In this document: positions 3,231 through 6,859 of the stretch, in pieces
Layout: each line of letters starts with the position of its first letter
Numbering within the stretch: the stretch's first letter is position 1
IMG/VR virus record: IMGVR_UViG_3300006753_000101
Location: 1-20,965 of that record
DNA from: a virus
Strand: one strand, 5' to 3'
Length of the DNA: 20,965 bases
Notes under the pieces: generated by a model
Told to the model about the DNA's origin: nothing
What the model saw: the letters and a program-made list of their open reading frames with translations, nothing else
The model's database searches: none
Translations under genes and position numbers: made by a program

Positions 3231-4241
3231 CTAGCTACCGTCACCTTTTGATCCTTTAATCCAGCGACCAGTTACAATAGCGATACCGTAAGTAGCTGCT
3301 GCGAGATAGTTCCAGTTTTCACTAGAGAACTCTTCACCGTTGTTTCCGTCTTGTGGAGTCTTCAAGTAAGGAGCTTCTAATTCACAGTAGTAGAAGTCAG
3401 ATTGTCTTGAAGCGGCTAAGAACCAGTATTTTCTTTTAGAAGTATCTACACCACCAGCTGCTGTAGTAGCAATTCTTCCTCCTTTCACATGTTTATAAGC
3501 ATTTTTATATACATTGAAGGTAGCAGAGTTAGATGTATCAACATTAGCTTCTGCATTCAAAAGCTCTCTAACTTGGTGGATAGTATTAGGATCATCTGTT
3601 GTAATAATGGTGTCAGGAGTGATCTCCATTTTTACACCAAGATTATCAAATGTTTCCTCGACAAAACTTTGTTCTGCTGTTTCCAAAGCTCCTTTAGAGA
3701 ACTGAGGATTACCAGTGATCTGGTTAGAGTATGTAGTAGCAGAACCTGTAAGCGTATGTACTGCACTAATTAGTGCTAGATCATCACCCACATCAATGCT
3801 TACAGACTCACCGTCAAGATCAGTATAGCTTGTACTCCATGCGAACGTCAATCTATGTGATAGATCTAGATCACATCTACTTGGACAAACCTCAGTCAAT
3901 GAAGTAACTCTGTCAAGGATATCTTGATCCTTACCAGCAACTCTCATTCTTTTAGTAATAGATACTTCAAGAGATATGGTATAAACCTGCATATCTTTCT
4001 CATATCCGTACTGTACTTCTGCTTGAGAAGCTGTATCACCTTCCGCTCTTTTCTGAGCATATTGTGATCTATGTAGTCTTTCTGCGAATCTTTTGGTGTC
4101 TCCAGTGCCATGAGGCATGACATCTGTAACAACAATATCAGATTCTTTGATTGCAGAAGGCAATATCATAAGACCATCTGTAAAACTCCTTTTCACAAGA
4201 TCAGTGAACTGACCAAATGAAAGCGAACTAATTGTTGGCAT
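3231..4241 (-). CDS. Major capsid protein (336 aa)
   Basis: Starts MPTISSLSFGQFTDLV and ends GSKGDGS with TAG. Recognised from overall family resemblance: an N-terminal arm, then VMPHGTGDTKRF, a helix-rich segment with DLDLSHRLTFAWSTSYTD, and the stretch HTLTGSATTYSNQITGNP. A C-terminal region with LLNAEANVDTSNSATFN follows, typical of HK97-fold coat proteins. The length is normal for the family. It lies after the probable scaffold and decoration genes, the usual order. It contains about 24 glycines and no TGA, so it reads cleanly under the standard code, unlike most neighbours. The leader is AT-rich with TTTACT close to the ATG and no Shine-Dalgarno sequence. Confidence 0.85.
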   Translation of the reverse strand: MPTISSLSFGQFTDLVKRSFTDGLMILPSAIKESDIVVTDVMPHGTGDTKRFAERLHRSQYAQKRAEGDTASQAEVQYGYEKDMQVYTISLEVSITKRMRVAGKDQDILDRVTSLTEVCPSRCDLDLSHRLTFAWSTSYTDLDGESVSIDVGDDLALISAVHTLTGSATTYSNQITGNPQFSKGALETAEQSFVEETFDNLGVKMEITPDTIITTDDPNTIHQVRELLNAEANVDTSNSATFNVYKNAYKHVKGGRIATTAAGGVDTSKRKYWFLAASRQSDFYYCELEAPYLKTPQDGNNGEEFSSENWNYLAAATYGIAIVTGRWIKGSKGDGS

Positions 4242-5670: not shown

Positions 5671-6405
5671 TTATTTGTTAGAATTTAAAGAAATAATTCT
5701 GCCGCCTCTAATAACAAAGTCAGACATTCCATCTTTTTTGTTGTCAGGGGCTTTACTAGAGGGTTTTGATGCTCAGGAGGTTCAAAGCAACGCTCTGGCT
5801 TCTTGTCATCTTCACTCTCTAATCTCATCTCTGCTCACGTAAAGAGTTGCCATTTCTGCGTATTCTTTTGCATCAGCTTCGGTTAGTGTCTTACCTTTTG
5901 TGATTTTGTCAAAGTAGGATTGTGCCTGATCTCTCTTCTCATCACTAAGCTTAGAAATGATATTCTCTGCCTTCTTTAATGCCTTCTTTAATGACTCTGT
6001 GTGCATCTCTTGGGATCTTTTCTCTTGATACATTTTCTCAAAGTCATCTTTTAGAGATGGTTGTTTCTGATTTTGCTCCATAGAGTCACGTCAGAGATCA
6101 AGTACAGCTTCTTTGGCATCACCATAAGACTTGTAGCCAAACCTTTTTGCAACTTCATTTGCAGCAATTGGGTCTTTCTCATGAAGTTCTAACAAACTTT
6201 TTGCGTTCTGTTCTGCATTCTGAACTCCGGAATCAATAAGTAAAGACCTCATCCTTTCGACTTCTTGTCTGCTTCCTTCCATTTGTTCTTGATGCCTTTT
6301 AGTGACTGCATCACTGTCATTGGGATGGGCTTCACCAGATTCCTGATCTGCTTGAGAGTTGTCCTGTTCAACAGGAGTCCCATCTTTATCCAAGTTGTCC
6401 GTCAT
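5671..6405 (-). CDS. Probable capsid scaffolding protein (244 aa)
   Basis: Starts MTDNLDKDGTPVEQ, highly acidic and polar for the first 50 residues (SQADQESGEAHPNDSD). Helical, charged segments follow (MEGSRQEVERMRSLL, ESLKKALKKAENIISKL, DEKRDQAQSYFDKI). The C-terminal part is low-complexity and ends with a basic tail (RGGRIISLNSNK). Low hydrophobicity, coiled-coil content and position before the capsid gene fit a scaffolding protein. Five TGA codons are read as Gly; one (in LDLGRDSMEQ, near residue 105) joins two halves that appear as separate ORFs in the standard code. The leader contains a terminator hairpin and a long RNA hairpin, suggesting regulated expression of the capsid cluster. Confidence 0.65.
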
Positions 6406-6426
6406 GGGGTTGGAAAAGAAAATAAA

Positions 6427-6449
6427 AAACAGGTATCTACTACCTGTTT
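6427..6449 (-). terminator. Intrinsic terminator-type hairpin in the scaffold leader
   Basis: On the minus strand AAACAGGTA, a 5-base loop and TACCTGTTT form a perfect 9-bp stem, directly followed by TTTATTTTCTTTT. This is a textbook factor-independent terminator shape, but it ends about 20 bases before the scaffold start codon. Its 5' arm is also part of the 3' arm of the 28-bp hairpin at 6437-6500, so the two folds are mutually exclusive. Confidence 0.75.
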
Positions 6450-6500
6450 AATGAGAACGAAGACACCCCCGCGTCTCCACTCCCATTAAACAGGCAGTAG
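6437..6500 (-). promoter_or_regulatory. 28-bp RNA hairpin, possible antiterminator
   Basis: Arms 6437-6464 and 6473-6500 pair over 28 contiguous positions around an 8-base loop. Five positions are not Watson-Crick. In the minus-strand transcript all five are G-U wobbles; in a plus-strand transcript all five would be A-C mismatches. That asymmetry points to an RNA structure kept in the transcribed strand. It overlaps the 5' arm of the terminator hairpin at 6427-6449, the geometry of an attenuator. Ribonuclease processing or mRNA stabilisation are alternatives. Confidence 0.7.
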
Positions 6501-6532
6501 GGTTGTTGGGGGTTATTGTATCTATTAATGAG

Positions 6533-6859
6533 CTACTTCTTCTTTTTTGCTTTTTTTGCCCCTTTTGCCTCTTCTCTCTTTTTTAGGAGATCTGTGTAGT
6601 GTTCTTGTGTCTTCTCTGCGTCACTTATAATTCATTCAATTGTGCTTATACCTATATATGCTTGCACCTCCTTTCAATTGTAGTTTCACATTCACAGATT
6701 TGCTCTAATTCTGTTTATGCAAGTTTGAAGATATTTTATGAATATGTCCTTGTATTCTATTAATTCTTGCACATCTGTTTCGCTAAATCTAATCTCTCAT
6801 TCTCTCATGCGCATTTGATCAGTAGACGTTATTACAAGCTTATCCTTTGTGTTGGTCAT
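6533..6859 (-). CDS. Small basic protein of unknown function (108 aa)
   Basis: Starts MTNTKDKLVITSTDQMRMRE, overlapping the portal gene by 28 bases in another frame; ends with a Lys-rich tail (EEAKGAKKAKKKK) and TAG. It is invisible under the standard code, because five TGA codons (read as Gly) break it into short pieces. The middle part (ISTIEGIISDAEKTQEHY) looks like a small helical or helix-turn-helix type fold, and the NYNGKEVQAYIGIS phrase is compatible with a DNA-binding or adaptor protein. Known phages often place small head-completion proteins between portal and scaffold. Function not recognised. Confidence 0.65.

Follow-up and report, generated by a model that had tools for sequence, protein, structure and literature searches.

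Overlapping hairpins and a boxA-like element before the capsid genes of glycine-recoded phages: a candidate attenuator leader

Gene order and genetic code of the phage contig

The DNA analysed here (hereafter referred to as the window) is a virus record of 20,965 bases, a contig from a recoded phage in which TGA specifies glycine. The minus-strand genes, including the whole structural cluster, are open only if TGA is read as a sense codon. In the relatives compared, glycine accounted for 62 of the 136 residues aligned with TGA codons and tryptophan for only two; this predominance of glycine, with almost no tryptophan, indicates code 25, which is used by Absconditabacteria and Gracilibacteria (PMC10746230). 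TGA codons are few in several relatives.

The minus-strand gene order is terminase, portal, a gene encoding 108 amino acids, the leader studied here, a scaffold-like gene, two small genes, a dec-like gene and the gene for the major capsid protein (MCP). The terminase (10480-8831) and portal (8748-6832) genes were identified by PHROG matches, the latter to a “head-tail adaptor” family. The 108-aa gene (6533-6859, read with code 25) overlaps the 3' end of the portal gene, encodes a lysine-rich C-terminus and ends with a TAG stop codon at 6535-6533; searches of PHROG and Pfam returned no match for its product, and a gene of about 100 codons occupies the same place in the relatives. The initial annotation had located the leader between portal and scaffold. 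The scaffold-like gene does indeed start at position 6405, but the 108-aa gene (6859-6533) separates the portal gene from the leader.

The scaffold-like gene (5671-6405, minus strand; start codon at 6403-6405) opens the capsid cluster and encodes a highly charged, predicted helical protein of 244 amino acids, with an acidic N-terminus conserved among the relatives. Its family and fold searches gave no match, and the name “scaffold” therefore rests on position, composition and helicity. The dec-like gene lies at 4770-4276 (minus strand). The MCP (336 amino acids; 3231-4241, minus strand) was assigned by a fold match, its AlphaFold model (mean pLDDT 77.6, pTM 0.75) resembling HK97-type capsids in the PDB, with a best E value of 1.5e-10. 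No Shine-Dalgarno sequences were found at the gene starts of the window (e.g. 10480, 8748, 6859 and 6405, minus strand). Runs of C (ACCCCC) precede several of these starts and U-rich stretches precede most of them; these elements might constitute a non-Shine-Dalgarno initiation signal in these recoded phages.

Two overlapping hairpins before the scaffold-like gene

The gap between the 108-aa and scaffold-like genes contains a long hairpin (hereafter referred to as P1; 6437-6500, minus strand), with arms at 6500-6471 (5') and 6466-6437 (3') and a GGGG loop at 6470-6467. In the minus-strand RNA, P1 is an uninterrupted helix of 30 bp, with 11 G-C, 13 A-U and six G-U pairs and no A-C opposition. 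The hairpin of 28 bp with five non-Watson-Crick positions initially described is thus real, but forms part of a larger helix with six such positions. All six are G-U in the minus RNA, consistent with the original proposal that pairing is maintained in the direction of transcription. Folding of the minus RNA from 6532 to 6400, the check originally suggested, gave -46.5 kcal/mol, as against -26.6 ± 3.2 kcal/mol for dinucleotide shuffles (z -6.25; none of 200 shuffles as good), and the plus RNA of the same stretch had no comparable fold (z -1.4). The contig contains no second copy of the hairpin, and Rfam covariance models for riboswitches, ribozymes and packaging RNAs gave no match at the gathering score in the window or in 10 loci. 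A leader peptide encoded across P1 was also considered: the window has a 12-codon ATG frame in this position, but this candidate was dropped because most relatives lack a counterpart.

A second, shorter hairpin (hereafter referred to as T; 6427-6449, minus strand) consists of nine exact pairs, three of them G-C, with arms at 6449-6441 and 6435-6427 and a loop at 6440-6436. Its sequence is AAACAGGUA-guaga-UACCUGUUU, with a folding energy of -10.0 kcal/mol, and a U-rich tail, UUUAUUUUCUUUU (6414-6426), lies directly 3' of it, giving the whole a terminator-like pattern; the scaffold-like start codon lies 21 nt downstream of T. The overlap of this perfect 9-bp hairpin with the long hairpin was borne out, as positions 6449-6441 serve both as the 5' arm of T and as part of the 3' arm of P1. 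The claim that the two folds exclude each other applies to the outer 13 bp of P1, but not to the inner 17 bp, which are compatible with T. At equilibrium, the probability of P1 is close to 1 and the pair probability of T is 4e-9; in RNA lacking the 5' arm of P1, the best fold is T. In a strict test for overlapping hairpins (see below), T in the window alone reached p = 0.004. A further hairpin of the window, the GC-rich AGGGGGGAAACCCCCU at 1703-1683 (minus strand), followed by UCUAUUUCUUUU, is also terminator-like and lies directly before a start codon, between genes for 483 and 134 amino acids.

Two elements are found upstream of P1. A boxA-like element overlooked in the initial annotation, GCUCAUUAAUA (GCTCATTAATA), at 6523-6533 (minus strand) has one mismatch to GYTCTTTAANA, the published consensus for boxA, the NusB/NusE site (PMC5725501). 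It overlaps the last base of the stop codon of the 108-aa gene and is the only sense-strand match in the window with no more than one mismatch to this consensus. A C-rich strand, ACCCCC, at 6508-6513 (minus strand) is complementary to the loop region of P1 (GGGGGU, 6470-6465). These two sequences may form an early pairing, A, enclosing the 5' arm of P1.

The leader in related phages

A search of viral contigs with the single terminase sequence identified no close relatives, and alignments were needed as queries. Viral and genome contigs were scanned, yielding about 20 lineages with a portal gene, a gene of about 100 codons, a gap and a scaffold-like gene. The same gap contained a strong sense-strand hairpin of unrelated sequence in 19 related lineages, and no alignment of the gap sequences between lineages is possible; the layout of the leader is kept, with wholly different letters, in at least 15 related phages. 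For the sense fold of the 110 nt before the scaffold-like gene, the mean z was -4.2, with values below -2 in 19 of 20 lineages, versus means of -0.25, -1.0 and -0.2 before the portal, dec and MCP genes, respectively. Summed over 19 lineages, P1 comprised 119 G-C, 208 A-U and 68 G-U pairs, with only five A-C mismatches, and the sense fold was more stable than the antisense fold in 18 of these 19 lineages. This asymmetry between G-U and A-C, together with the greater stability of the sense strand, indicates that selection acts on the RNA transcribed in the direction of the genes. P1 has at least 20 bp in 11 of the 19 lineages, including the window, and 12-18 bp as drawn in the other eight, with no loop sequence conserved among the relatives. 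The boundaries of P1 were drawn by hand in ten lineages, leaving some freedom in the fits.

The conservation of T was assessed with a strict test, requiring an uninterrupted hairpin with its 5' arm within the last 20 nt of P1 and its 3' arm downstream, and shuffling only the part downstream of P1. Over 19 lineages, a hairpin overlapping the 3' arm of P1 was obtained with a combined p of 1.9e-11; a looser test based on energy gave 2e-6. The distance from the end of T to the ATG is 21-27 nt in most lineages. Covariation in related phages, proposed at the outset as a check, was found as compensatory changes in both folds between close pairs. Between lineages L005 and L017, three pairs of P1 are changed on both sides with pairing preserved, and T has a double change at a base of the arm common to P1; between L011 and L041, one pair of P1 is changed on both sides, and G-U changes maintain T. 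Lineage L110, discovered once the rules had been set, has P1 and T (AGUAGCU..AGCUACU), followed by UUUAUUUAUU, 25 nt before the ATG. No clear T was found in L015 and L016, and L013, L029, L080 and L008 can be fitted only if P1 or T is drawn differently. T is short in about half of the lineages (5-6 bp, -4 to -6 kcal/mol), with no clean run of U after it; a terminator-like pattern similar to that of the window was observed in L011, L012, L051 and L085.

Runs of at least seven U in eight positions precede the scaffold-like gene in 8 of 19 lineages, but only five of 69 starts of other genes (p = 8e-4). U-rich sequence is nonetheless general before the other genes of these phages, and the value of the U-rich tail as proof of a terminator is weakened accordingly.

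The spacers before P1 contain a recurrent word, YTCNTTAAM, corresponding to boxA. Seven of the 20 leaders have a match to the published consensus, with at most one mismatch, within 60 nt upstream of P1, where the density of matches elsewhere in the same loci would predict 0.07; the consensus is perfect in L029 and L049. The E. coli boxA word gave a p of 5e-6 in leaders with a long spacer and of 0.71 in those with no spacer, and it outperformed all 2000 of 2000 shuffled words. The value of 5e-6 is somewhat flattered, because some of these sequences had already revealed the motif before it was tested, and the density comparison is the stronger of the two numbers. More than half of the lineages lack boxA. 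TATAAT-like boxes occur in the spacer before P1 in L054, L051, L029 and others, but a sigma-70 promoter in this position was not supported above chance (p = 0.26).

Two further pairings gave moderate signals. Complementarity between the P1 loop and the strand immediately 5' of P1 had a combined p of 2e-4 in long-spacer leaders (e.g. ACCCACUA/UAGUGGGU in L051 and GCCUCCAC/GUGGAGGC in L029), as compared with 0.28 in leaders without a spacer, and was not significant in the window alone (p = 0.21). A stable pseudoknot between the C-rich strand and the loop of full-length P1 was rejected: the 0-7 nt available cannot span about 30 bp, and the C-rich pairing could therefore only precede or replace P1. 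The second pairing would join the 5' arm of P1 to the region around the scaffold-like start, with which it shows complementarity (combined p of 8e-4 versus shuffles, as opposed to 0.43-0.80 for the other gene starts of the same phages). It is clearest in L010, L003, L008 and the window.

Several other features of the relatives were recorded. L041 (RXKB01000065.1) belongs to this family of phage contigs, contains in-frame TGA and has an extra 1.2 kb between the terminase and portal genes; it lies within a MAG named Dependentiae, probably due to a binning error. In L051, two inserted ORFs (L051:5386-5925, GFEGIYKIN.., and L051:6441-6971, GYEGIYAIN..) flank the dec-like gene, among the capsid genes, and, judged by eye from their sequences, appear to resemble NUMOD/HNH homing-endonuclease proteins. 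Finally, relatives with the standard code (L056, L063, L068, L069, L070, L072 and L073) have, upstream of the dec-like gene and some 430-680 nt before the MCP gene, a long non-coding stretch with strong structure. Here a second hairpin overlaps a first one, whose loop is GCGAC or CTCGACT, as in L068 (CUCUCUGC-aaacaa-GCAGAGAG). This stretch has the look of a distinct structured leader RNA, and its sequence appears to be conserved to some extent.

Models for the control of capsid gene expression

We infer that the leader is very probably a genuine gene-control switch. Our preferred reading, held with a confidence falling just short of even, is that of a cis-acting attenuator leader of the capsid operon that contains boxA and controls transcription read-through. 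An attenuator-like leader had been suggested in the initial annotation, and this suggestion gains from the conservation and covariation of overlapping, exclusive folds across leaders that cannot be aligned, and from the presence of boxA upstream; it loses from the negligible share of T at equilibrium and from the restriction of clear U-runs after T to about half of the lineages. The further suggestion, that the leader sets the ratio of packaging to capsid transcripts, gained no such support and is a hypothesis. The location of boxA just upstream strengthens a reading in terms of transcription elongation.

According to the attenuator reading, the elements would be transcribed in the order boxA, C-rich strand, P1, T with its U-rich tail and scaffold-like start codon, with P1 acting as the antiterminator and default fold, and T as the terminator. 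Read-through should be the default, because equilibrium favours P1 almost completely: with its 5' arm free, P1 would fold once the 3' arm had been made, T would be blocked and the polymerase would enter the capsid genes, and NusB/NusE bound to boxA would help to keep the complex competent for read-through. The dominance of P1 also implies that T can form only if some factor keeps the 5' arm of P1 from pairing with its 3' arm. Were this arm to be withheld during the synthesis of T, T would form and a share of the polymerases would stop before the capsid genes. Candidates for this role are the early C-rich pairing, a ribosome completing translation of the upstream gene and protein binding. Termination at T and the binding of Nus factors to boxA in this host are likewise predictions from these elements.

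Like trp-like attenuators, the leader places two exclusive hairpins before an operon, with U after the second; some lineages may also have a third pairing, upstream of the antiterminator. It differs from them in that the antiterminator has up to 30 bp, no leader peptide or ligand domain was recognised, and the leader lies inside a phage late transcript, with no conserved sequence. The lambda nut sites (boxA-boxB) and the boxA of the rRNA operons and of suhB also resemble it, in having boxA upstream of a hairpin and a terminator-like hairpin. P1, however, greatly exceeds the short boxB hairpin in length and its loop is not conserved; no N-like protein was identified among the structural genes of the window, and capsid rather than early genes lie downstream. 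No short boxB hairpin of the lambda type was found in the window, where P1 has 30 bp and a GGGG loop, and the leader was not classified as a nut site because this long, loop-variable hairpin does not fit the boxB half.

The main rival, which we consider unlikely but by no means negligible, is modelled on the lambda N leader. Nus factors bound to boxA, and tethered to the polymerase, would repress translation of the nearby gene, and cleavage of P1 by RNase III would relieve this repression: the cut would separate boxA from the message, and the freed 3' arm would fold as T, a hairpin at the new 5' end protecting the processed capsid mRNA. The succession of boxA, long duplex and start codon resembles that of nutL, structured RNA and N (PMC5725501), and the length of P1 in the 11 lineages with at least 20 bp, and its perfect pairing in the window, are consistent with an RNase III substrate. 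This model would also explain why T, the best fold once the 5' arm is removed, is kept despite being hidden by P1, and the constant distance from T to the ATG would suit a processed 5' leader. However, the 12-18 bp drawn in eight lineages are short for RNase III, the overlapping second hairpin T and the identity of the downstream gene set the arrangement apart from the N leader, and cleavage here is putative. Nor does cleavage need an enrichment of U-runs after T; among the models considered, only attenuation does. A purely translational switch, which we regard as rather improbable, would have P1 keep the leader open; without P1, T would fold and the freed 5' arm would block the scaffold-like start. 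It draws on the complementarity of this arm to the scaffold-like start and not to other starts, and on the spacerless leaders, in which the upstream stop codon lies close to the start of the 5' arm, where a ribosome could open it. That signal is moderate, though, and absent from many lineages, and the U-runs and boxA are left unexplained.

The position of P1, which immediately precedes the scaffold-like gene in every lineage, could also suggest a binding site for a phage protein, such as free scaffold protein, or a packaging or assembly RNA, with T incidental. In phage P22, the scaffold gene is autoregulated, with control exerted at this gene, between portal and coat, and control would be similarly placed here; any action of the scaffold-like protein on the leader is conjectural. 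We consider this explanation very improbable, as no loop or sequence is conserved for recognition, T is conserved far beyond chance, and the Rfam families without a match included those of packaging RNAs. Least probable by far is a DNA palindrome (cruciform, recombination site or end of a mobile element) or a chance inverted repeat with no RNA function. The long inverted repeat speaks for it, but it is already contradicted by the 68 G-U pairs versus five A-C oppositions on the transcribed strand, the conserved place and the compensatory changes.

Tentatively, and with less confidence than for attenuation itself, we propose that these leaders form an undescribed class of phage late-operon leader, kept across glycine-recoded phages and conserved in its letters only at boxA. 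In this class, the host's Nus factors and a hairpin of up to 30 bp would decide on entry into the capsid genes, and a hidden terminator would be released only when the 5' arm is occupied. No such leader before phage capsid genes was found in the open-licence papers of PMC, and no description of late-gene regulation in phages of code-25 bacteria was found. These phages are known almost only from metagenomes, and the leader yields concrete small RNA constructs for testing. It also illustrates a regulatory RNA recognisable by geometry alone, from overlapping hairpins at a fixed distance from a start codon, to which sequence searches and Rfam are blind. The conservation of such a leader with boxA suggests that the Nus machinery of the host times or doses capsid production in these phages.
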